A stretch of 10,230 bases of DNA from positions 1 through 10,230 of the forward strand of contig JAKOSS010000637.1 of assembly GCA_029777145.1 (NCBI GenBank), read 5' to 3'. Shown here piece by piece: positions 387-9,666 of this stretch. Under the pieces are notes generated by a model that worked only from the letters and a program-made list of their open reading frames with translations, was not told the DNA's origin and did no database searches. Origin of the DNA: Acidobacteriota bacterium (lineage in GTDB: Bacteria; Acidobacteriota; Blastocatellia; Pyrinomonadales; Pyrinomonadaceae). The translations under genes were made by a program, and so were the position numbers. The first letter of the stretch is position 1; each line of letters starts with the position of its first letter.

Positions 387-3182
387 CTATCTGGCCGAAG
401 CGACCGGAATATCCGTCGCGGCTCCGAAGTTCGTGATCATCAGACCGGCGGTCGAGCGTTGTGCGTACCACGTCGCCGACGACGCCCTGAAGACAGCGGT
501 GTCCCATCTGCCGTCGCCGTCGTAATCGCCAGGAATCGGCGTATCGGTGCTCAGCCCGAACGGCGTCGAGAAATACGAGAAATCCTCGGACCTCAGAACG
601 AACCACTCGCCTGTCGACGGTCGCCAGAAAGCGATGTCGGCTCTGCCGTCGCCGGTGTAGTCTCCGGCGACAGGACGATCGGTCGCAACGCCGAATGTTG
701 CCGCGATGACGCCGAGTGCCGAACGCTTGAGCCACCATTCTCCGTTCGACGGTCGGAAGATCGCCAGATCGGCGCGTCCGTCGCCGTCGTAGTCACCGAC
801 CTGCGGGACATCGCCCGCCGCGCCGAAGGTCTCGATGTTCGTACCGCCGTCCGATGAACGCTGGACGTACCAGGTGCCGGTCGACGGCCGGAAAACGGCC
901 GCGTCCGCCTTGCCATCGGCATCAAAATCACCCGGAGCCGGAATGTCGCCGGCGCTGCCGAACGGGAACGAGTAGAAACTCGCGTCTTCGCTCCGCATCA
1001 CGAACCAGACTCCCGACGAGGGCCGGAAGACGGCGATGTCGGTCTTTCCGTCGCCGGTGAAATCGGCCGGTACGACCGAATCTGATCCGTTGCCGAACTG
1101 AAATGCCCGATCGACGCCGTCCGAACTTCGCGCGTACCACCACTCCGCGTTCGACGGTCTGAAGATCGAGACATCAGTCTTGCCGTCGCCGTCGAAATCG
1201 ACGTAACCGCGATTCGTTGGCGCCGCTTCGCCGAAAACAGTGAATCGGAACGCCTGCGAGATGGCGACGCCGCCGGCCGCGCCCGGGTCAGTGACGTACC
1301 AGCGGCCGAAAAAGGTACGGCCGACAAGATCCGCATTGTTCGGGATCGCGAGGCTGACGGACGCGAATCCGTTGCCGGCGCCGGTTCCCTGCGTGACGAG
1401 TTCGACGCGCGCGAAGGTCCCGCTCGACGGAACCGAGGTCGCACCGGGGTCGGTGTCGTTGACGACGAGGACCACGGGCGCGTTACCGAGCGCACCGGAA
1501 ACGGCGACGGTAAAGCTCGGATTGCCGACCAGCGGAGGCTCGATCGCCATCGCCTGCGGAACGATCCCGTTTGTTCCTCCGACGCCGGTTCCAAGGATCT
1601 GCGGAACGCGGTTGGATTCCGTGAACAAATGCGGCCGGTCGAATGGCGGAAGCTCGTTCCGCACGCGGTCGTCGGTCAGCGCGTTTCGCAGAAAGGCCGC
1701 GAGATCCGCTTTCTGGCCGGCACTGAGATTGCGCGGCTGGATCAGATTGCCGGGAAAGTTCGGCGCGTTCCTGAAGTCGCCGCCGCGATTGTAGAACTCG
1801 ATCACGTCCTCGATCGCCCCGAATCGCCCGGTGTGCATCAGGGACGAACGCAGAGCGACGTTACGGAGTGACGGCGTTCTGAATTCACCGACGTTGTTCT
1901 GCGCGCCGGTCACTTGAAAACGTCCCGTATCCTCATTGGCCGGTCGGATTCCAATATAGTGGAAAGCATTGTCCGACAAGAGATTGCCGCCGTGACAGAC
2001 AGCGCATGAATTGGCGCCGAACACGCCCCGTCCGCGATTTTCCGCCGGACCGAGCGGTTGAATACCGGCGTTCGCCAGATCGAGCGGCGTCTGATCGGAG
2101 AACTGCGTCCGTTCGTAGGAACCGATCGCCAACGCGATTCGCGTCGGAGTTACATCAGGCGTGCCGAAAGCTTCCTCGAACAACTCGGGATATGTACGAC
2201 CGCCGATCCAAGTATCGAGCGCGGGCGGAATGTCGATCGCCAGCGCGAGCGGTTTTGAGGACGCGACCTGCGATGCGAGAAGCGACCAGTTGCTCGACGA
2301 GTGTCCCATTTCGACAGCGCTGACCGGCGGTCCGACCGCCTGGCTTTCGAGCGCGCCGCCGTTGTTCAGAACGATCGCGTTGGTGACCGGATCGCGAAAG
2401 GTGCTCGACGCGCGTCCGTCCCAGAACAGCAGCGGCGAGTAAACGGCGTTGATATGCGAATTGGACTTCCGCGGCGTCACCTGATTCCGGAAGCCGTAAT
2501 TGGCCGACCAGCTGTATGTGCCGTCCGCATTGTTCAGCGGCACGCCGGGCGATCCGATGACGTCGTCGGCAGAATCGTAAAGATTGTCGAAACCGGGATT
2601 CGTCGAGAAGAGCTGCGCCACCAGCGACCGCGGATCGGAACCGCCGGTCGCCGCGCGATGACACGTTCCGCACGCGACGGTTTTTGTCGCCGACAGCTGT
2701 TCGTCCCAGAACAGAGCCTTCCCAAGATACGCTTTTGCGGCCGTCGTCGTGTTTCCCGGCGGTCCGAGATTGGGCGGCTCGAGCGGCGGAACCGGGCCCT
2801 GATTTGTCGTCGTCGCCCGGAAACCCTGCGCAACCGGACTCATCGGACTGTTGCCGCCGGCGTTTTCGGCACGTACCCAGTAGAACAATTGCTGGCCTGC
2901 CGTCGCGCCGGTGTCAAAGAAGAAGTTCTGCGAGATCACCGCGATGCTGGTCGCGGTATCGGGATCGTTCGTCGTGTTGCGAAATACCCGGTAGCTCGTC
3001 GCTCCGCGGATCGCGTCCCAATAAACTCCGATCTTGTTGTTGTACCGGTTGTTCGATGCCTGAACGCCGGTCGGAGCCGAAAGCCCCGACTGACCTGTCA
3101 CGACCGGCGATGTATCGAACATCGCGACCGCCGCCGCGAACGCGGCAAAAATTCCAAGTATGAAAAATTTAGTCCGTTTCAT
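387..3182 (-). CDS. Secreted FN3 / di-heme cytochrome c peroxidase (MauG-like) / VCBS-repeat protein
   Basis: Residue numbers count from the upstream TTG at 3188 (933 residues). The better start is ATG 3182 (931 residues), which has an AGG ribosome binding site six bases upstream. A signal peptide occupies about 3-33 (KRTK, then a hydrophobic run). Residues 36-125 resemble a fibronectin type III domain. Residues 145-515 look like a bacterial di-heme cytochrome c peroxidase: heme motifs CGTCH (173-177) and CAVCH (395-399), the LFWDGRA motif (254-260), a VEMGH glutamate (293), and the MHTG...EFYNRGG segment (451-470) whose methionine is a plausible distal ligand. Residues 664-933 are six VCBS/FG-GAP-like repeats with D-x-DGDG-x-x-D calcium loops. 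The family reduces hydrogen peroxide or oxidises protein substrates in the periplasm. The hemes lie 222 residues apart, wider than in short CcpA-type enzymes. The start almost touches the sigma gene's stop, so the two are probably translationally coupled. The peroxidase class is secure; the substrate is unknown. Confidence 0.9.
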   Translation of the reverse strand: MKRTKFFILGIFAAFAAAVAMFDTSPVVTGQSGLSAPTGVQASNNRYNNKIGVYWDAIRGATSYRVFRNTTNDPDTATSIAVISQNFFFDTGATAGQQLFYWVRAENAGGNSPMSPVAQGFRATTTNQGPVPPLEPPNLGPPGNTTTAAKAYLGKALFWDEQLSATKTVACGTCHRAATGGSDPRSLVAQLFSTNPGFDNLYDSADDVIGSPGVPLNNADGTYSWSANYGFRNQVTPRKSNSHINAVYSPLLFWDGRASSTFRDPVTNAIVLNNGGALESQAVGPPVSAVEMGHSSSNWSLLASQVASSKPLALAIDIPPALDTWIGGRTYPELFEEAFGTPDVTPTRIALAIGSYERTQFSDQTPLDLANAGIQPLGPAENRGRGVFGANSCAVCHGGNLLSDNAFHYIGIRPANEDTGRFQVTGAQNNVGEFRTPSLRNVALRSSLMHTGRFGAIEDVIEFYNRGGDFRNAPNFPGNLIQPRNLSAGQKADLAAFLRNALTDDRVRNELPPFDRPHLFTESNRVPQILGTGVGGTNGIVPQAMAIEPPLVGNPSFTVAVSGALGNAPVVLVVNDTDPGATSVPSSGTFARVELVTQGTGAGNGFASVSLAIPNNADLVGRTFFGRWYVTDPGAAGGVAISQAFRFTVFGEAAPTNRGYVDFDGDGKTDVSIFRPSNAEWWYARSSDGVDRAFQFGNGSDSVVPADFTGDGKTDIAVFRPSSGVWFVMRSEDASFYSFPFGSAGDIPAPGDFDADGKADAAVFRPSTGTWYVQRSSDGGTNIETFGAAGDVPQVGDYDGDGRADLAIFRPSNGEWWLKRSALGVIAATFGVATDRPVAGDYTGDGRADIAFWRPSTGEWFVLRSEDFSYFSTPFGLSTDTPIPGDYDGDGRWDTAVFRASSATWYAQRSTAGLMITNFGAATDIPVASAR
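390..1199 (-). repeat. Six tandem ~135-bp coding repeats (VCBS/FG-GAP units)
   Basis: The 3' third of the peroxidase gene is an in-frame tandem repeat. Calcium-loop motifs of the type D-[FY]-x-[GA]-DG-[KR]-x-D start at residues 664, 709, 754, 799, 843 and 888 (numbering from TTG 3188), so the spacing is 45, 45, 45, 44 and 45 residues. Most units continue with [AV]-[FI]-[FW]-RPS-x-G-x-W, a short strand ending in RS, and FG-x-x-x-D-x-P. Such repeats usually fold into calcium-stabilised beta-propeller blades. Units are diverged at the DNA level, so the expansion is not recent. The protein ends a few residues after the sixth unit with no sorting signal. Confidence 0.85.
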
Positions 3183-3184
3183 AA

Positions 3185-3808
3185 TCAACCTAACCTATCC
3201 AATAACGTCCGCAAATAGTTTCTCGTCCGCATCAGCCGCACCTTGACGTTGCTTTCGCTCCATCCGACGGCTTCGGCGACTTCCTTCACCGACATTTGCT
3301 CGCCGTGATAAAGCGTCACCGCCAGCCGATCCTTCGCGTCGAGTGCCGACAGCAGTTTGTCCGCAAGCTCCCGATTTACAAGATCGTTCTCGTTGTCGCG
3401 GGTGCCGACCGCGATGTTCTCAACATATTCCGACTCGGCGGTTCCAAGTTCGGCGAACAGGTCTTCGGGCCGTCTTTGCCGACGCCGCAGCTCGTCGTAG
3501 CAGACATTGACCGCGACCCGCGAGATCCACGACGCGAACGACTTCTCCTGTCCGCCGCGAAAGTCCTTCAACGAAAAGTAAGCCTTCGTGAAGACGACCT
3601 GCGAGCATTCCTCGACCATCTCCCGACGATTGAAGAAACGTCCGACGAGATGAACGACAAGCCGCTTGTATCGCTCAAAGATCTCCGAGAAAGCCGCTTC
3701 GTCGCCGTCAAGCACCGCCCGGACGAGTTCCTCATCGGTTCCCGCTTCTCCGGTTGATGGCAGACGCACGTTGATCAGCTGTTCCAATTTGACGGCTTCC
3801 TCGGTCAT
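3185..3808 (-). CDS. ECF-family RNA polymerase sigma factor (sigma-70 regions 2 and 4)
   Basis: This 207-residue protein has the two-domain layout of extracytoplasmic-function sigma factors. Region 2 spans about 27-110 (DGDEAAFSEIFERY; EECSQVVFTKAY; F-x-SW-x-x-x-VAVN-x-CYDELRRR). Region 4 spans about 148-201, with the helix-turn-helix VKEVAEAVGWSESNVKVRLMRTR. It directs RNA polymerase to a dedicated promoter set, usually under control of a membrane anti-sigma factor. ATG 3808 is the only reasonable start, but the 25-nt gap after the EF-hand gene holds no good Shine-Dalgarno sequence, so expression may rely on coupling or be weak. It is third in the operon, behind a membrane protein that could be its anti-sigma factor and ahead of the peroxidase gene, whose start lies 2 nt past its TGA. 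The family call is firm; regulon and signal are unknown. Confidence 0.93.
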   Translation of the reverse strand: MTEEAVKLEQLINVRLPSTGEAGTDEELVRAVLDGDEAAFSEIFERYKRLVVHLVGRFFNRREMVEECSQVVFTKAYFSLKDFRGGQEKSFASWISRVAVNVCYDELRRRQRRPEDLFAELGTAESEYVENIAVGTRDNENDLVNRELADKLLSALDAKDRLAVTLYHGEQMSVKEVAEAVGWSESNVKVRLMRTRNYLRTLLDRLG

Positions 3809-3833
3809 TGAAATCAGTAAAGCAAAACTTCGG

Positions 3834-4961
3834 TTACTGTTCGGGGCGGCGCGGCGGCCGTTTGTTGTCCGGCTGCGGACGGCGCTGTTCCTGATTCGGC
3901 TGCATCGTGAAATCCGCCGGAACCTTGAAGAGATCCGCCGACGGTTCGCCGAGCTTGATGTTGGTCAGCCTGAACACGACCTCGCCGATGAACGGATCGG
4001 TGTGTTTCGACATCACCACCATCTGCAATTCCGGCGAATACCACTTTTCGCTGACGACGAGAACCGGTCGGTCGTTTCCGATCTGCCCGACCGGCACCTC
4101 GATCGTCGTACGAGTTCCCTCGGCGGTGACGCCATCGAAGGTCTTTTTGCCCAGCGACTCGGTTTTCGCGTCCTGCGGCTCTTCCTTCGTCGCCAGCGGC
4201 GAGTTCCTCGCAATCGGAATCTCAAAATAGGACTTCGCGGAATAGTCGAGCGAGTAGGCCTTTCCCGATGCCTGATCGACGATATGGGTCAGCTTCAGCG
4301 GTTCGTCGTCGCGGCCGAGTACCGGAAAGCCGTTGATCGACTCGAGCGGCATTTCCTGACGGATCCGGCCTTCACCGTCGCGGTAGATCTGTCCCTTGCT
4401 CTCATTCTTAACGAGCGTCCCGTCGAACAAACGTTTGGACTCTTCGCGGACCGTTTCGGCCGAAAAAGGAGCGCCTGTGACAAGTTTGTCGCCGAATCTG
4501 AATTCAGCCCCGACAAAGCGCGCGATCATCGTATTCGGACGCGGGTTCTGTCCGGGTCCCTGAACGCTTCTGAGCTCGCGCCAATCGATCGCGCCGTCGT
4601 TGTTCTGATCAAACATCCCGAAGCGCCGGTTCGACATCTCGTCGAAGGCGGCACGCGTGATGTCGGCCTGAACCCGTCCGAGGAAGAAAAAATGCGGCAC
4701 GACCTGCGGATTCGGCGGTTGGTTCGGATTCGGCGGACCCGGGATCTCGCTCATTTGAAGAATTCCGTCCGAGTTTCGGTCAACCTTCGTAAAAAATGCG
4801 TTGGCCGCCTGCCGGTACTCGTCCTGCTCGATCTTCCCGTTGCGGTTTACATCCACTTTCAAGGCCCACGGCGGCGGTCCACCGCCGGGTTGGGGGCCCT
4901 GCCCGATCGCGACCGCGGCAACGCCGGCGATCACGCAAATTGTCATCAAAACGCTTCTCAT
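3834..4961 (-). CDS. Secreted EF-hand protein with an acidobacterial C-terminal domain
   Basis: Residues count from ATG 4961, chosen because a GAGGTGA ribosome binding site lies just upstream; an in-frame GTG at 4976 is the weaker alternative. The 375-residue protein begins with a signal peptide (about 1-20). EF-hand calcium loops follow at about 37-48 (DVNRNGKIEQDE), 61-72 (DRNSDGILQMSE) and 118-129 (DQNNDGAIDWRE), with proline-rich linkers and possibly a degenerate fourth hand between the second and third. From about 160 on lies a domain with GAPFSAETV, IYRDGEGRIRQE, EGTRTT-x-EVPVGQIGN and WYSPELQMVV motifs. I recognise this as recurring in acidobacterial hypothetical proteins; no function is known to me. 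The tail is proline/arginine-rich. The protein is probably exported, binds calcium, and is co-expressed with the ECF sigma factor. EF-hand and secretion calls are firm. Confidence 0.82.
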   Translation of the reverse strand: MRSVLMTICVIAGVAAVAIGQGPQPGGGPPPWALKVDVNRNGKIEQDEYRQAANAFFTKVDRNSDGILQMSEIPGPPNPNQPPNPQVVPHFFFLGRVQADITRAAFDEMSNRRFGMFDQNNDGAIDWRELRSVQGPGQNPRPNTMIARFVGAEFRFGDKLVTGAPFSAETVREESKRLFDGTLVKNESKGQIYRDGEGRIRQEMPLESINGFPVLGRDDEPLKLTHIVDQASGKAYSLDYSAKSYFEIPIARNSPLATKEEPQDAKTESLGKKTFDGVTAEGTRTTIEVPVGQIGNDRPVLVVSEKWYSPELQMVVMSKHTDPFIGEVVFRLTNIKLGEPSADLFKVPADFTMQPNQEQRRPQPDNKRPPRRPEQ

Positions 4962-4965
4962 ACCT

Positions 4966-4972
4966 TCACCTC
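4966..4972 (-). promoter_or_regulatory. Ribosome binding site deciding the EF-hand protein start
   Basis: On the minus strand GAGGTGA lies four bases before ATG 4961. It sits inside the open frame that would start at GTG 4976, so it favours the ATG. The upstream membrane-protein gene ends at TAG 4978-4976, leaving 14 nt between stop and ATG, consistent with one mRNA. Confidence 0.6.
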
Positions 4973-4975
4973 GCA

Positions 4976-5635
4976 CTACTGGACAAAGCGGATCGCGCGG
5001 GCCGACCCGTCATCTCCCATCAAAACTTCAGCATTCACGTACTCAGCAGCATTCGCGACGTTCGTCGCAACGCCGAGTGAGACCATCATCGAACGCGGGA
5101 CCTTGACCTTGACCACCTGTCCGCTGTCGGATTTCGGCGAGTACATCAACGCGATGAACTCTGATTTGACTTCCGATTGCGCCGGCGCGTCGGGCGTCGT
5201 TGCCCGAACCGGGATCGCTTTCGGCGATTTTCGGATCCGGGCGGCGATTCTTATCGTTTTCGCGACCGGGGTGGTCGGCTGCGGCTTCTCCGGCAACGCG
5301 ATCGCCGCCTTCGGAGCCGCATCGCTTCGCGCGATCGTGATCGCATCTTGGTCAACGCCGTTTGTTGCGACATTCAGTGTTTCGCCGGTGCGATCAGAGA
5401 CAAAGACTCCGATCAGGAGCGCTCCCAACGCGAGCGATGCGAAAACGGCGATCCTCCAGTCGAACGTCGGGATCCATCCGCGCGCTTTCGCCGGTCGCTC
5501 GCCGGCGACGGTCCGTTGAACGGCCCACCAGAGTTGCGGCGAGTCGGCGATCTCGTCGAGCGTCTTTTCGTCGACGGCCGACTCATTCACTACTTGCTTC
5601 AGGATCAGATCCAATTGTTCATCCGAATACTTCAT
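4976..5635 (-). CDS. Single-pass membrane protein, probable anti-sigma factor-like regulator
   Basis: This 219-residue protein has a short cytoplasmic N-terminus (1-59, acidic and helical, with a DSPQLWWAVQ segment), one transmembrane helix at about 60-79 (R at 61, then AVFASLALGALLIGVFV), and a presumably periplasmic part. The linker is rich in alanine, proline and lysine. The C-terminal domain (about 154-219) carries VKVPRS and EVLMGDDGSARAIRFV motifs that I know from acidobacterial membrane proteins encoded beside ECF sigma genes. The topology and operon position fit an anti-sigma factor. There is no cysteine or histidine anywhere, so the classical zinc-binding HxxxCxxC anti-sigma motif is absent; the role is inferred from context. 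The start at ATG 5635 has GAGG six bases upstream. It is the first gene of the minus-strand operon. Confidence 0.75.
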   Translation of the reverse strand: MKYSDEQLDLILKQVVNESAVDEKTLDEIADSPQLWWAVQRTVAGERPAKARGWIPTFDWRIAVFASLALGALLIGVFVSDRTGETLNVATNGVDQDAITIARSDAAPKAAIALPEKPQPTTPVAKTIRIAARIRKSPKAIPVRATTPDAPAQSEVKSEFIALMYSPKSDSGQVVKVKVPRSMMVSLGVATNVANAAEYVNAEVLMGDDGSARAIRFVQ

Positions 5636-5752: not shown

Positions 5753-6601
5753 ATGCAATCGAAGCTCGCGGACCCGCGATCAAGAATCATCATCGGCTGT
5801 CAGGGCTGGAACTACGACGACTGGACGACGGTTGATCCGTCGTCGCCGGTCTTTTATCCGCGTGGTACGCGGGCGCCGGAAATGCTCGGACTCTATTCGC
5901 GGGCCTTCGGCTCGACCGAGATCGACTCGACGTTCTATGCGATCCCGCCGTCTTCGAATATCGAAAAGTGGTTTGAACGCACGCCCGCGGAATTCACGTT
6001 TTCACCTAAAATGCCGCAGGAAATCACGCATGATCAGCGGCTTGGTGACGATTCATTTCCGGCACTCGACGAGTTTAGCGAACGGATTCGCGAACTTGGC
6101 GACAAGCTCGCTGTTTGCCTCGTTCAGCTTCCGCCGCAGTTTGAGGCGAATCGCGCGAACGCCGTCAGACTGCGCCGATTTCTCGAACGCCTGCCGCGCG
6201 ACATCAGATTCGCCGTCGAATTTCGCCGACGGGAGTGGTTCATCGACTGGACTTTCGAGGAGTTGGGGAAACACGGGATCGTGCCGGCGATCGTCGAGGG
6301 TAAATGGATTCCGAACGAGTTGATGTTCGAAGCGGCATCGCGCGTCCGCGGGGAGTTCTCGTATGTCCGTTTCATGGGCGAGCGCGACCTGACGTCGTTC
6401 GACCGCATCTGGCGCGACCGGACGGAACACCTGAAACGCTGGGCTGGCCTGATCGCGTCGATCGACACCGATGCGACATTTGTCTATTTCAGCAATTTGT
6501 ACGAGGGACACGCTCCGGAAAGCTGCCGCAAACTCGCCGCATACCTCGGCCTCGAATCGGTCGACCCCGAATCATTGGACGATCAGCGATCGTTGTTTTG
6601 A
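5753..6601 (+). CDS. DUF72 family protein (YecE-like TIM barrel)
   Basis: The 282-residue protein matches the DUF72/YecE family along its length. Signatures are IGCQGWNYDDW near the N-terminus (14-24), FYP followed by E-x-L-x-x-YS and TEIDSTFYAIP (55-65), FTFSPKMPQEITHD (81-94), AVEFRRREWF in the middle, FMGERD, and YFSNLYEGHAPES near the end. Family structures are TIM barrels with a conserved pocket of aromatic and charged residues. A nuclease- or isomerase-like role has been guessed, but no biochemical function is established that I can name. Length is typical and the frame looks intact. ATG 5753 has only a weak GGCGG-type ribosome binding site. It is divergent from the sigma-factor operon and monocistronic; I see no terminator before the repeat array begins. 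Confidence 0.92.
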   Translation: MQSKLADPRSRIIIGCQGWNYDDWTTVDPSSPVFYPRGTRAPEMLGLYSRAFGSTEIDSTFYAIPPSSNIEKWFERTPAEFTFSPKMPQEITHDQRLGDDSFPALDEFSERIRELGDKLAVCLVQLPPQFEANRANAVRLRRFLERLPRDIRFAVEFRRREWFIDWTFEELGKHGIVPAIVEGKWIPNELMFEAASRVRGEFSYVRFMGERDLTSFDRIWRDRTEHLKRWAGLIASIDTDATFVYFSNLYEGHAPESCRKLAAYLGLESVDPESLDDQRSLF

Positions 6602-6717
6602 TTGATGATCGATCAGTCCTACCGCGGATGGACAAGAAACAGGTTCAACAACTTCTGTGAACTTTGAGTCGAGGCGAAAGCCGTCCAGGCCCGTCCGCCT
6701 CCAGCAACACTTCGACT
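6602..6717. other. Spacer between DUF72 gene and the left repeat array
   Basis: No full gene is present. A ten-codon frame (ATG 6628 to TGA 6660; MDKKQVQQLL) resembles a protein N-terminus but has no ribosome binding site and stops at once, so it may be a gene relic or chance. Arms 6666-6672 and 6712-6718 (GAGTCGA / TCGACTC) are perfectly complementary, with a second pair GAGGCG 6671-6676 and CGCCTC 6696-6701. This could be a decayed outer member of the adjacent palindromic array. Confidence 0.4.
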
Positions 6718-7016
6718 CCAGCCAGCCATCGGCTGGCAAAAGAGAATTAGCTACACGCGTGAGCGGCAGAAAGGCGCAACCGCAAATCGCGTGCCCGCCA
6801 CTTGGCGAGTGAAATACGAATAGCTGCAGGCGTCAAACGATGCCGCGACGCCAGCCAGCCATCGGCTGGCAAAAGAGAATTAGCTACACGCGTGAGCGTG
6901 TAGGCAACGGCGCCAATCGACTCAAGCCCGCCGCCGGGCGGGCGACGGAGAATTAGCTACACGCGTGAGCGGCAGAAAGGCGCAATCGCAACTCGCGAGC
7001 CCGCCACCGGGCGGAC
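6718..7016 (-). repeat. Left array of ~73-bp bipartite palindromic (REP-like) units, about five copies
   Basis: Each unit has two palindromes. Palindrome B lies at 6721-6737, 6793-6810 (decayed), 6854-6870, 6926-6943 and 6999-7016. Starts are 72, 61, 72 and 73 bp apart. Two copies are GCCAGCC-ATC-GGCTGGC; the others are GCCCGCC...GGCGGGC types. Thirteen bases after B follows palindrome A: complete at 6884-6903 (CTACACGC-GTGA-GCGTGTAG), a half copy ending in GAGCGGC at 6751 and 6957, and decayed at 6824. Positions 6718-6765 and 6851-6898 are an identical 48-bp direct repeat. The array begins 13 nt past the transposase stop. Its units are the reverse complement of those in the right array; strand is marked minus to show this, not transcription. 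Confidence 0.85.
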
Positions 7017-7029
7017 GACCGGAAGCAAG

Positions 7030-7470
7030 TTAGTCCCGCCAGAAATTCGGGTCCAAGTCCATCCCATGAGCCCGGACCAAACCCTCCAATTCTGTCTTGA
7101 AATCGAACTTGCGGTGATGCTCCTCCTGACGTTGAATGTAGCGTCTCACGGTCGGAAACATTGATGAACTTACGCTGAATGCTGCATATCGCCGTTGCCA
7201 GGCAAAACGTCTTCGAAAATTCTCGTTTGCCCATTTCGACGAGCTTGATTTGAGCTGCCTAAGAAAATCGGCAACCGTGATAGTTGGAGGAATCCTGGTT
7301 AACAGGTGCACATGATCCTCGATACCGTTGATCTCGAAAGCCGTTCCGCCGAGGTTTCGAACTATTCCACCGAGATATCCATGCATTTGAGGGCGGAGTG
7401 TGGCGTTCAGAAGCGGTAAACGACCCTTCGTCCCAAAGACGATGTGAAGAAGCAGATTTGTATATGACAT
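7030..7470 (-). CDS. IS200-like Y1 transposase, REP-associated (RAYT/TnpA-REP type)
   Basis: This 146-residue HUH-family protein is intact and full length for a small Y1 transposase. The HUH motif is H53-V-H55 within EDHVHLL. WQRRYAAFSVS (91-101) is a family hallmark. The catalytic tyrosine is Y111 in VRRYIQRQEEHH, with Q115 following. IS200/IS605 TnpA proteins cut and rejoin single-stranded DNA at hairpins; RAYT relatives act on chromosomal REP palindromes instead of ordinary IS ends. Assignment to the RAYT side rests on context: palindrome arrays begin 13 nt past the stop and 33 nt before the start, and no TnpB partner is present. ATG 7470 has a good AGGAG site eight bases upstream (7479-7483). 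Base composition looks less G+C-rich than neighbouring genes, suggesting acquisition. Y1 transposase identity is firm; RAYT function is inferred. Confidence 0.9.
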   Translation of the reverse strand: MSYTNLLLHIVFGTKGRLPLLNATLRPQMHGYLGGIVRNLGGTAFEINGIEDHVHLLTRIPPTITVADFLRQLKSSSSKWANENFRRRFAWQRRYAAFSVSSSMFPTVRRYIQRQEEHHRKFDFKTELEGLVRAHGMDLDPNFWRD

Positions 7471-7503
7471 TGTGAGTTCTCCTGTTTGAGGTTTGTGAGT
7501 ATC

Positions 7504-8000
7504 GCCCGCCCGCTGGCGGGCTTATTAGTCTTCGTGTTCGAACTACACGCTCACGCGTGTAGCTATTCCTGTTTGCCCGCCGGGTGGCGGGCTTGCGAGT
7601 TGTAGTGTCGTCTTTCTACACGCTCACGCGTGTGGCTAATCCTGTTTGTCCGCCCGGTGGCGGGCTTGCGAGTTGTGGTGTCGTTTTTCTGCACGCTCAC
7701 GCGTGCTGCTAGTCCCGTTTTTCCCGCCCGGTGGCGGGCTCGTGAGTTGTGGTGTCGTTTTTCAACACGCTAACGCATGTAGCTATTCGTATTTCGCCCA
7801 CCTGGTGGCGGGCTTGTGAGTTTTAGCGTTCTAACTACACGCTAACGCATGTAGCTATTCGTATTTCGCCCGCCTGGTGGCGGGCTTGTGAGTTTTAGCG
7901 TTCTAACTACACGCTCACGCGTGTAGCTATTCGTGTTTCGCCCGCCTGGCGGCGGGCTCGTGACTTGTAACGCCTGACCTACAAGCTAACGCGCGGAGGT
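7504..8000 (+). repeat. Right array of ~73-bp bipartite palindromic (REP-like) units, seven copies
   Basis: Palindrome B (GCCCGCC-N4-GGCGGGC or a close variant) lies at 7504, 7575, 7648, 7722, 7796, 7868 and 7940, each 18 bp, spaced 71, 73, 74, 74, 72 and 72. Palindrome A (CTACACGC-TCAC-GCGTGTAG or variant, 20 bp) lies at 7543, 7616, 7689, 7763, 7835 and 7907, plus a decayed copy at about 7979-7998. The order on the plus strand is A, about 12 nt, B, about 21-23 nt, next A. The connecting sequences are also conserved. The units at 7766-7837 and 7838-7909 differ at a single base. The array fills the whole gap between the transposase start and the aminotransferase stop; no gene or T-run terminator is visible in 7471-8027. 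Confidence 0.9.
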
Positions 8001-8027
8001 AACAGGCTTTCGGTCGCCAAACCGCTC

Positions 8028-9332
8028 TCAACAAACCGAAAATCCGGCGTCGAGCGCGGAGATCATCTCGTCAACGTTATCTTTGGTCGAATTTAGCATC
8101 ATCCCGGTGCGAATGACGTTGCCATATAGTCCGCCCTTGCCGATCAGAACGCCGCGGCGCTTTGTTTCCTCGAAGACCTTCAAAACGGCCTGCGGATTCG
8201 GAGCCTTCGACTTCCGGTCAACGACCAGTTCGATCCCCTGCATCAGGCCTTTGCCGCGAACGTCGCCGATGATCTCGTACTTGTCCTTGAGTTCTTCGAG
8301 GCGCTCGCGCAAATAGTCGCCGACGACACGGCAGTTCGTCCGCAGATCGTTGTCCTCGATGAATTTGATCACCGCCAGGCCGGCGGCCATCGAAACCGGA
8401 TTGCCGCCAAATGTCGCGAATGTCAGGCCCGGGAATTTGTCGGCGATCTCCGGCGTCGCGATCGTCCAGCCGATCGGAACTCCGTTGCCCATTCCCTTAG
8501 CCGACGTGATGATGTCCGGTTCGACGCCCCAGTGTTCGATCCCGAACCACTTGTCACCGGTGCGTCCCCAACCGGTCTGCACCTCGTCCGCGATGCAAAC
8601 GCCTCCGTGCTCGCGCGCGATCCCGTAAACGATCTCGAAATACTCCGGCGGCGGAGTGATGAAGCCGCCGACGCCGAGGATCGGTTCGGCCATAAAGGCC
8701 GCGATCTCGCCGGTCGTCGTCGTCTGGATCAACTCCTTGACGTCCTTCGCGCATGCCAGATCGCACGACGGATATTCCAGTTTGAACGGGCAACGGTAGC
8801 AATACGGAGCCGGCGCGTGGATGATGCCGGCGACCTGTGAGGGCAGCGGCTTCCACGTCGAATGGCCGACCGCGGATAGCGCCGTCGCACTGCGTCCCGA
8901 ATAGGCGTGGCGGAGGACGATCACTTCGTGGCGGCCGGTCGCGAGTTTCGCGGCGACGATCGCCGTGTCGTCGGCCTCGGTCCCGCTCGAAGTAAAGAAC
9001 GACTTCTTCAAATTGCCGGGCGTGATCGCGGCGAGTTTTTCGGCGAGATCGGACTGGTTCGCATTCGCGTACAGCGTCGAGGTGTGCTGGATCTTGTTCG
9101 TCTGTTCGATGATCGCCGCATTGACCTCGGGATTTGCGTGCCCGACGCTGACGGTCAGCACGCCGCCGAAGCAGTCGAGGTACCTGTTGCCCTCGTTGTC
9201 CCAGACATACTCGCCCTCTCCGCGGACGAGCTCTATCGGCTCTTGGTAATAATTCGCGACGGCCGGGAACAGGAACTCTTTGTGTTTGCGGACGGCTTCA
9301 GAAACGGTCATTTTCGATTCGGTCGGATTCAT
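8028..9332 (-). CDS. Class III PLP-dependent aminotransferase (AGXT2/GABA-transaminase-like)
   Basis: The 434-residue protein is a complete fold-type I, class III aminotransferase. Visible features are the phosphate-binding SSGTEA-DD-TA segment (S116-G117-T118), the pyridine-binding D249 in IADEVQTGWGRTG, the Schiff-base lysine K279 in SAKGMGNG, T307 of TFATFGGNP contributed across the dimer, and a plausible substrate-carboxylate arginine R408. The motif LDCFGGVLTVSVGHANPEVN and the GDVRGKGLM-x-GIE tail resemble alanine-glyoxylate aminotransferase 2 and related omega-amino acid transaminases. It would move an amino group between an omega- or alpha-amino acid and a 2-oxo acid in the cytoplasm; the exact substrate cannot be read. 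Residues 178-194 hold a C-x2-C-x8-C-x3-C cluster. ATG 9332 lacks a clear ribosome binding site; ATG 9311 is an alternative. It is monocistronic. Confidence 0.92.
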   Translation of the reverse strand: MNPTESKMTVSEAVRKHKEFLFPAVANYYQEPIELVRGEGEYVWDNEGNRYLDCFGGVLTVSVGHANPEVNAAIIEQTNKIQHTSTLYANANQSDLAEKLAAITPGNLKKSFFTSSGTEADDTAIVAAKLATGRHEVIVLRHAYSGRSATALSAVGHSTWKPLPSQVAGIIHAPAPYCYRCPFKLEYPSCDLACAKDVKELIQTTTTGEIAAFMAEPILGVGGFITPPPEYFEIVYGIAREHGGVCIADEVQTGWGRTGDKWFGIEHWGVEPDIITSAKGMGNGVPIGWTIATPEIADKFPGLTFATFGGNPVSMAAGLAVIKFIEDNDLRTNCRVVGDYLRERLEELKDKYEIIGDVRGKGLMQGIELVVDRKSKAPNPQAVLKVFEETKRRGVLIGKGGLYGNVIRTGMMLNSTKDNVDEMISALDAGFSVC

Positions 9333-9369: not shown

Positions 9370-9398
9370 AATATATGAGAACGGGGGGCGAAAGTAAA
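9370..9398 (-). promoter_or_regulatory. Candidate sigma-70 promoter of the aminotransferase gene
   Basis: On the minus strand TTTACT (9398-9393) and TATATT (9375-9370) are separated by exactly 17 bp, matching four and five of six consensus positions. Transcription would start near 9363, leaving a leader of about 30 nt before ATG 9332. The spacer contains a C6 run. Confidence 0.5.
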
Positions 9399-9535
9399 AA
9401 GGAGAAGGGTAAAAACAAAAAGTGAAAAGGGCAAAAGCAAAGAGGAAAAAGGCAAAAATTCCTCACGACGCGTAACCATGTTCGTTTTTCTACTTTCTAC
9501 TTCTTAGTTTTTACTTTTTTACTTTTTACTTTTCC
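9379..9535. repeat. Low-complexity purine-rich / pyrimidine-rich imperfect inverted repeat
   Basis: Positions 9379-9459 on the plus strand are almost entirely A and G, built from words such as AAAAGTGAAAAGGGC and GAGGAAAAAGG. After about 20 mixed bases, 9481-9535 is almost entirely T and C, built from CTACTTTC and TTTTTACTT words. The pyrimidine arm's reverse complement resembles the purine arm, so the two could pair imperfectly. No gene is present. The outer ends carry the candidate promoters of the aminotransferase (leftward) and the tRNA (rightward). Confidence 0.6.
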
Positions 9536-9590: not shown

Positions 9591-9666
9591 GCCACCCTAG
9601 CTCAGTTGGTAGAGCATTCGATTCGTAATCGAAAGGTCGTCGGTTCAAATCCGACGGGTGGCTCCA
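9591..9666 (+). tRNA. tRNA-Thr (anticodon CGU, reading ACG)
   Basis: The cloverleaf folds completely. The acceptor stem GCCACCC (9591-9597) pairs with GGGTGGC (9656-9662). The D arm is GCTC...GAGC. The anticodon stem TTCGA/TCGAA encloses loop TTCGTAA with anticodon CGT at 9624-9626. The T arm is GTCGG-TTCAAAT-CCGAC. Discriminator T9663 is followed by an encoded CCA (9664-9666). The first two pairs, G1-C72 and C2-G71, fit threonine identity. A dedicated terminator follows. Confidence 0.97.

Follow-up and report, generated by a model that had tools for sequence, protein, structure and literature searches.

The substrate of the IS200/IS605 and TnpA-REP enzymes is a single-stranded DNA hairpin, with a tetranucleotide at the 5' foot of this hairpin helping to pick the cut site, and cleavage involves the formation of a 5'-phosphotyrosine link. 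The ends of IS200 are not terminal inverted repeats. REPs of the GTAG type, their dimers and their tandem clusters have been described, including families from Planctomycetes (PMC3733652), and in two REPtrons of Marinomonas the REPs are multiplied near the gene (PMC8266576). In the survey of Quentin et al. (2018), the TnpA-Y1 proteins of subclass 1.2 were listed without REP and with few copies, mostly in Cyanobacteria and Bacteroidetes (PMC6006769).

The Acido-Lenti-1 motif (RF01687) was reported by Weinberg et al. (2010) in Acidobacteria and Lentisphaerae, where it was marked as probably RNA and not cis-regulatory (PMC2864571). Rfam types this family as an sRNA gene of unknown function. A paper from 2026, which still reads it as a non-coding RNA, describes its function as little known (PMC13298647), while another one merely lists it in an annotation (PMC10059132). 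In the passages covered of papers naming Acido-Lenti-1 or RF01687, no link to a transposase was found.

The window analysed here is a stretch of 10,230 nucleotides from an Acidobacteriota bacterium (contig JAKOSS010000637.1), in which a gene for a small HUH/Y1 transposase, tnpA, is enclosed by two arrays of hairpins. With a probability of roughly 0.7, this locus is a REPtron-like system of TnpA-Y1 subclass 1.2 with a bipartite REP-like element.

The transposase gene and its two arrays

The tnpA gene sits in the intergenic space of two convergent ordinary genes (Table 1). Its product matches the Pfam family Y1_Tnp (E 7.5e-24) and passes the NCBIfam IS200/IS605 model (65.2 bits, cut-off 55), but it fails the REP_Tyr_transpos model (22 bits, cut-off 80), and its motifs are DHVH, WQ and the tyrosine motif YIQRQEEHH, without Y..NP. 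The label RAYT, inferred in the earlier note, is not supported by the REP_Tyr_transpos score or by this tyrosine motif, and the protein is not a classical RAYT (TnpA-REP, class 2). Judged by its signature motifs, the window TnpA is a member of TnpA-Y1 subclass 1.2, as it shows Y---Q--HH, DH[VI]H, WQ and a length close to the 148 aa or so of that subclass. An AlphaFold2 model of the protein (pLDDT 91.1) is predicted to lie nearest, among solved folds, to the TnpA proteins of IS608 and ISDra2 (best E 5.2e-9), with the TnpA-REP structure 4er8 at E 7.4e-6.

The protein was compared with 80 relatives from several phyla, kept of 159 found, whose loci and genomes are numbered here with L and G, respectively. 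The HuH motif and WQ are present in all 81 proteins and Y[IV]..Q..HH in 78 of them, while a motif scan of the same set yielded Y..NP in 0/81; Tyr111 is invariant across 40 aligned proteins. No tnpB was detected among the seven window proteins scanned with Pfam, and the sole Rfam match in the window is a tRNA. The three genes encoded on a single strand between the peroxidase-type protein and the DUF72 gene perhaps constitute one operon.

Table 1. Positions of the features found in the window
Feature	Position	Strand	Remarks
Right array, upstream of gene start	7504..7998	plus	Six CTA-footed A, each with B; also a B nearest the gene and a seventh, degenerate A
Hairpin A, right array	7543..7562	plus	Other copies at 7616, 7689, 7763, 7835, 7907; each then CTA
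Degenerate seventh A, right array	7979	plus	Without CTA
Hairpin B, right array	7575..7592	plus	Starts 12 nt after CTA start; others at 7504, 7648, 7722, 7796, 7868, 7940
Left array, downstream of gene	6721..7016	minus	Inverse orientation, partly degraded
Hairpin A, left array, perfect	6884..6903	minus	Then CTA
Hairpin A, left array, imperfect copies	6957-6976, 6751-6770	minus	Each then CTA
Further partial A, left array	near 6818-6835	minus array	By eye
Hairpin B, left array	6926..6943	minus	Others at 6999, 6854, 6721
Twelfth B, left array	about 6793-6808		By eye only
tnpA, HUH/Y1 transposase, 146 aa	7030..7470	minus	Pfam, NCBIfam, motifs, AlphaFold2
DUF72 gene	5753-6601	plus	
Class III aminotransferase gene	8028-9332	minus	
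933-aa protein	387-3188	minus	Di-haem peroxidase (MauG-like) domain and FG-GAP repeats
207-aa ECF-type sigma factor, EF-hand protein, 219-aa protein	3185-5635	minus	219-aa protein without Pfam match
Low-complexity short tandem repeats	9396-9533		Periods 7-22 (Tandem Repeats Finder)
tRNA gene	9591-9663	plus	

Both arrays are built from a unit of 72-74 bp, in which hairpin A comes first, then CTA and, after about 9 nt more, hairpin B, and they constitute oppositely oriented mirror images around tnpA, the left units being the reverse complement of the right ones, as the earlier note had described; it also gave the gaps between arrays and gene, 13 nt and 33 nt, correctly. Hairpin A has an 8-bp stem and a 4-nt loop, and hairpin B a 7-bp stem, with a 4-nt loop in the copy at 7575..7592; the unit carries CTACACGC. 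The A hairpins of the right array are spaced by 73, 73, 74, 72, 72 and 72 nt, and in the left array the 5' arm is damaged in two of three A hairpins. The count of at least twelve units given previously stands when B hairpins are considered, since a scan of the window allowing one mismatch at most gives 11 of them (four on the left and seven on the right) and another one was recognized by eye, but the number of CTA-footed A hairpins is only nine.

The arrays are real and far above chance, as shown by Tandem Repeats Finder and by folding against shuffled sequence. On the right side, the program reports 7543-7969 with a period of 72, 5.9 copies and a score of 518, and on the left side the rows 6713-6966 and 6875-7019; the right array (7543-7960), folded as single-stranded DNA, yields z = -6.45, a value that 0/100 shuffles equal. 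Moreover, 44 inverted-repeat pairs were found, and all of the 25 that are listed connect the two arrays (29-65 nt, 71-86% complementary). Read on the other strand, hairpin A shows a REP-like unpaired foot; of the nine window hairpins, eight have ATAG or TTAG there and the remaining one CTAG. The GTAG that had been noticed at palindrome A is present, but inside the 3' arm of its stem.

The six units of the right array are 69-97% alike to each other, and those lying side by side can be very close (97% for the units at 7763 and 7835, and 92% for those at 7543 and 7616), which fits the expectation of a stepwise tandem gain. The closest relative, L001, is an orthologous locus that shares with the window both neighbour genes (83% and 94%) and the A type, but it holds 1 + 3 A units versus 6 + 3 in the window, indicating that the array gains or loses units where it stands. 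An independent array with a period of exactly 73 bp is present at L021, a planctomycete locus. The earlier note considered a dense array beside the gene to be unusual; the array is certainly there, but local multiplication of REPs had already been described in the two Marinomonas REPtrons (PMC8266576).

A two-hairpin unit beside related genes

Plain counts of hairpins around the gene were too noisy against the background, and the analysis was based on shared words, the CTA foot and covariance models. Over the window and the 80 loci, outward-facing hairpins with CTA behind them reach a density of 1.21 per kb at no more than 400 nt from the gene (77 hairpins), versus 0.39 per kb (25) in the opposite reading; the rest of the loci has 0.055 per kb on each strand. 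In an open count, CTA was in fact the commonest trinucleotide after outward hairpins (73/510, 14.3%, against a background of 1.6%). A scan for CC-stem-loop-stem-GG followed by CTA, in which loops could reach 36 nt, recovered 92 units in 48 of the 81 loci, 34 of which have them on both sides. In 81 of these 92 units, a hairpin B with a stem of at least 5 bp begins 9-13 nt from the start of CTA, whereas shuffled sequence offers such a hairpin at any offset in 10/92 and shows no preferred offset. The order of the unit, going away from the gene, is the 8-bp hairpin A, CTA and hairpin B. The foot is strictly GTAG in 56 of the 92 units and ATAG, TTAG or CTAG in the others, and the eighth base of the linker, counted from the C of CTA, is C in 70. 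Stem sequences vary between loci, while the design of the unit is constant.

The covariance model R1 was built from 18 units coming from 14 loci; stem covariation has been left out as evidence because the units of the model were picked for having stems. At E <0.01, R1 finds 205 matches in the window and the 80 loci, of which 179 lie within 800 nt of the gene and 26 elsewhere, a density of 1.45 versus 0.024 per kb (about 60-fold), and 119 of the 179 are outward. A unit is present within 800 nt of the gene in 58 of the 81 loci (on both sides in 38), including 44 of the 67 loci that supplied no training unit. The gene-proximal unit is outward in 73 cases and inward in 23, and its spacing to the gene has a median of 82.5 nt (quartiles 64-102). 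The 23 loci in which R1 detects no unit beside the gene are L001, nine from Bacteroidota and 13 others; the array of L001 belongs to the divergent type of the window.

The flank repeats are inverted in most of the loci with a match, among the matches listed. G001 has seven gene copies: the flank repeats are inverted at four of them and direct, as best match, at two, while one copy lies at a contig end. Beside divergent gene copies (L117, L121 and L124-L126), hairpin A is followed on the outward strand by CTT or CAA in place of CTA, and these feet are possible guide variants.

Dispersal, co-occurrence and Acido-Lenti-1

R1 matches were found in all 18 gene-bearing genomes tried, which were chosen by hand, with 7 to at least 150 matches in each (E up to 0.1). 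In G047, which holds 141 units, 40 neighbouring pairs face outward, none inward and one has both units in the same direction, and 17 of the 20 pairs examined are intergenic as judged by ORFs of at least 150 aa. In G004, 14 places chosen for having two pattern matches close together were aligned, and all of them consist of two A-B units in inverted orientation on either side of a spacer, the layout of the gene flanks without the gene; among other regions of the same genome, at least L107 holds a single unit. The 14 aligned copies (L093-L106) appear as MITE-like elements of about 300 bp, and their consensus has conserved outer ends, AAATAAAATCC and GGATTTTATTT.

As for the sequence type of the window itself, its restriction to this locus, named in the earlier note as an outcome that would speak against a REP system, is nearly what G001, the closest relative, shows: a pattern search gave six matches, four of them at the locus, one a lone A-like hairpin elsewhere and one probably due to chance. 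G004, with a protein 61% identical, contains a related A type in dispersed form, with 50 pattern matches, two places being counted on both strands and most matches standing at the two mismatches allowed, while the reversed-pattern control gave 0.

Gene copies are few and divergent in the genomes of relatives, as in subclass 1.2. The median pairwise identity is 41% in G047 (seven of eight copies) and 40% in G001 (six of seven), with the best pairs at 55% and 63%, respectively; the 56 gene-positive genomes of the G001 family have 1-13 matches each, in a search (E up to 1e-5) that may include other Y1 subclasses. Each of the eight copies of G047 has its own inverted flank pair, different from the others. 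The A stems of six dispersed pairs of this genome were not found, by eye, at any of the eight gene copies, so that these pairs gave no one-to-one match with the gene flanks.

An Rfam search of 15 loci (141 kb), chosen by hand mostly for clear units and small size, placed RF01687 at 17 positions in seven loci (L007, L016, L018, L021, L032, L043 and L057), all at about 510 nt or less from the gene; the matches are full length and above the gathering score, and the sole other Rfam matches in these loci are three tRNAs. In the window (6600-8100), RF01687 has no match at E up to 1, the criterion being at least 37 bits. R1 recovers one window unit at 33.1 bits, although its training included an L004 unit with the same A stem. 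R2, a model made without L004, reaches 18.2 bits in the window (E 6.5e-4 in 62 kb), followed by 16.0, 12.5 and 9.9, and it scores two units of L004, whose protein is 61% identical to the window TnpA, at 34-35 bits and the array units of L001 at 9.7 bits or less. Going by these scores, L004 is the bridge between the window units and the others, and the window units are a divergent, locally amplified branch of the repeat.

The gene and the units also occur together across genomes. Among 80 genomes of the G001 family, 56 have the gene, and the median number of units (counted among the best 77 scored candidates per genome) is 17.5 with the gene and 1 without it (p=1.4e-5); the rank correlation between gene and unit counts is 0.64, or 0.59 after genome size. 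At least five units were counted in eight of the 24 gene-negative genomes, and none in five of the 56 gene-positive ones. RF01687 itself is found in 42/56 genomes of this family with the gene versus 13/24 without it (medians 7 and 1, p 0.003). In Planctomycetota, where an A3 profile at E up to 1e-15 calls the gene in 23 of 119 genomes, RF01687 is present in 22 of these 23 versus seven of the 96 others (Fisher p 6.5e-17), and in control genomes it was found in 0/14. Among the best 150 listed RF01687 matches, 20 are no more than 800 nt away from one of the gene copies listed, where about 0.1 would be expected by a rough uniform estimate; 16 of them are outward and four inward, and of the 53 gene copies used, 13 have such a match. 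This adjacency guards against a mere shared clade as the cause of the co-occurrence. In two planctomycetes, G103 and G133, RF01687 copies are numerous and the search at E up to 1e-15 gives no gene of subclass 1.2, which may reflect orphan repeats, an incomplete genome or another enzyme.

The proposal of the earlier note that repeat and transposase belong together, and that the repeat is REP-like, is supported. The scattered copies that it suggested searching for are dispersed in relatives and commoner in gene-bearing genomes, both in the G001 family and in Planctomycetota.

Proposed mechanism and comparison with known systems

On a scale wider than the locus, and with a confidence just short of that given to it, it is probable that in many phyla the enzymes of subclass 1.2 have a two-hairpin repeat of their own, conserved in geometry and variable in sequence, which would represent a third kind of single-strand TnpA/repeat system, and that the Acido-Lenti-1 'RNA' is their DNA substrate and not an RNA gene. 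The predicted protein fold, nearest to the TnpA proteins of IS608 and ISDra2, which bind hairpins, speaks for the reading of the locus as REPtron-like. The mechanism that we infer comprises the substrate role of the units, cleavage, mobility and any benefit to the host. The strand read by the enzyme would be 5'-[hairpin B]-about 10 nt-(G/A/T)TAG-[hairpin A]-3'. The REP-like module for binding and guiding would be hairpin A together with its TAG foot, and hairpin B, at its fixed distance, may be a second binding site or may hold the linker single-stranded. The elements stand inverted around the gene, and at other places in the genomes of relatives this inverted pair recurs with a short spacer in between. 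On DNA exposed as a single strand, as at the replication fork, TnpA would bind hairpin A, and the TAG foot would guide the choice of a cleavage site beside the hairpin, the linker between B and A being a candidate site. Tyr111 would then cut, and rejoining would follow. As a result, inverted pairs would spread through the genome and tandem units would be added next to the gene, the 73-bp array being the presumed outcome in the window.

Other explanations have also been considered. The RF01687 unit might be a true structured non-coding RNA lying near the transposase by chance and regulating, for example, tnpA or other genes. The 2010 survey lists it as 'probably' RNA (PMC2864571), Rfam types it as an sRNA gene, and the paired design would appear identical in RNA, but an opposite orientation on both sides of the gene, inverted pairs, tandem arrays and the tracking of a DNA transposase are unexpected for a single RNA gene, which makes this explanation unlikely. 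A secondary RNA role of the units, as for REPs, is possible. Still somewhat more doubtful is an ordinary active IS200/IS605 insertion sequence with hairpins at its ends, the arrays being remnants of repeated insertions: family and fold of the protein are IS200-like and the flanking hairpins resemble IS ends, yet the gene copies of G047 and G001 are few and divergent, where an IS would have near-identical ones, the flanks are inverted, unlike the ends of IS200, and the dispersed elements are pairs without a gene.

The units could also belong to another mobilizing enzyme, a class 2 TnpA-REP, with subclass 1.2 genes preferring to insert within these units or next to them. The TAG-footed hairpin A does resemble the GTAG REPs of class 2, some gene-negative genomes contain many units, and the six dispersed pairs compared in G047 differ from the flanks of its gene copies. 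Against this stands the fact that eight of eight gene copies in G047 have an inverted pair of their own, so that the flanks vary with the gene and are not one resident repeat, and the spacing of units proximal to the gene is tight (median 82.5 nt); ownership by a class 2 enzyme is improbable to much the same degree as a chance neighbouring RNA.

The reading of the locus as a REPtron-like system of subclass 1.2 provides a testable function for sequences that have been filed since 2010 as a non-coding RNA without explanation, and, if it is true, many genes annotated for Acido-Lenti-1 RNA are repeats in the DNA. A transposase subclass listed without repeats is now given repeats, and the fixed spacing of the two hairpins together with the varying foot offers a handle on how single-strand transposases choose their cut sites.

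With regard to known systems, Acido-Lenti-1 is the same two-hairpin unit as that found here, as RF01687 matches fall at the repeat positions of seven related loci; it differs in having been described as a candidate RNA and in that the window units are below its detection. The REPtrons (RAYT, class 2) share with this system a hairpin-flanked Y1 gene, a TAG-type foot, inverted pairs, dispersed copies that are mostly intergenic where examined, and local amplification, but here the protein is of class 1 (Y..Q and not Y..NP), a second hairpin stands at a fixed distance and the foot varies. Compared with the unpaired 5' GT[AG]G foot of REPs and REPINs, NTAG is enriched and GTAG is found in 56/92 units, but not in the ATAG/TTAG-footed eight of nine window units; their dispersal as many, mostly intergenic, inverted pairs is seen in relatives, while in G001 the window type is almost confined to the locus. 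The window TnpA is not a RAYT by membership, and it would be REPtron-like in its working as far as can be read from sequence. Some A hairpins may be included in the GTAG families described for R. baltica and O. terrae, and a subclass 1.2 gene may be among the RAYTs of the same study (PMC3733652).

In the TIRtrons (TIRYT) of Di Nocera et al. (2013), inverted repeats also flank a Y1 gene, some of them being self-complementary and some forming dispersed families (PMC3733652). Nevertheless, 20 of 26 TIRtron proteins belong to subclass 2.1 with a C-terminal HTH (PMC6006769), and many TIRtron repeats share GGGGWSAS, not two hairpins and CTA (PMC3733652). The IS200/IS605 elements IS608 and ISDra2 have the nearest solved fold and a hairpin-binding single-strand transposase, whereas this system shows no tnpB among the seven window proteins, symmetric flanks and no near-identical copies in G047 and G001. 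The near-identical mobile copies and subterminal hairpins of an IS200/IS605 insertion sequence are not what relatives contain, as their copies are divergent and their flanks mostly inverted.

Finally, the members of subclass 1.2 share with the window protein a length of about 148 aa, DH[VI]H, WQ, Y---Q--HH, an IS200-like core and few divergent copies per genome; unlike in the 2018 listing (PMC6006769), two-hairpin flank units are common here (58/81 loci) and other phyla are involved. These flanking units contradict a stated observation of that survey and not a sequence criterion, and they thus extend the subclass.
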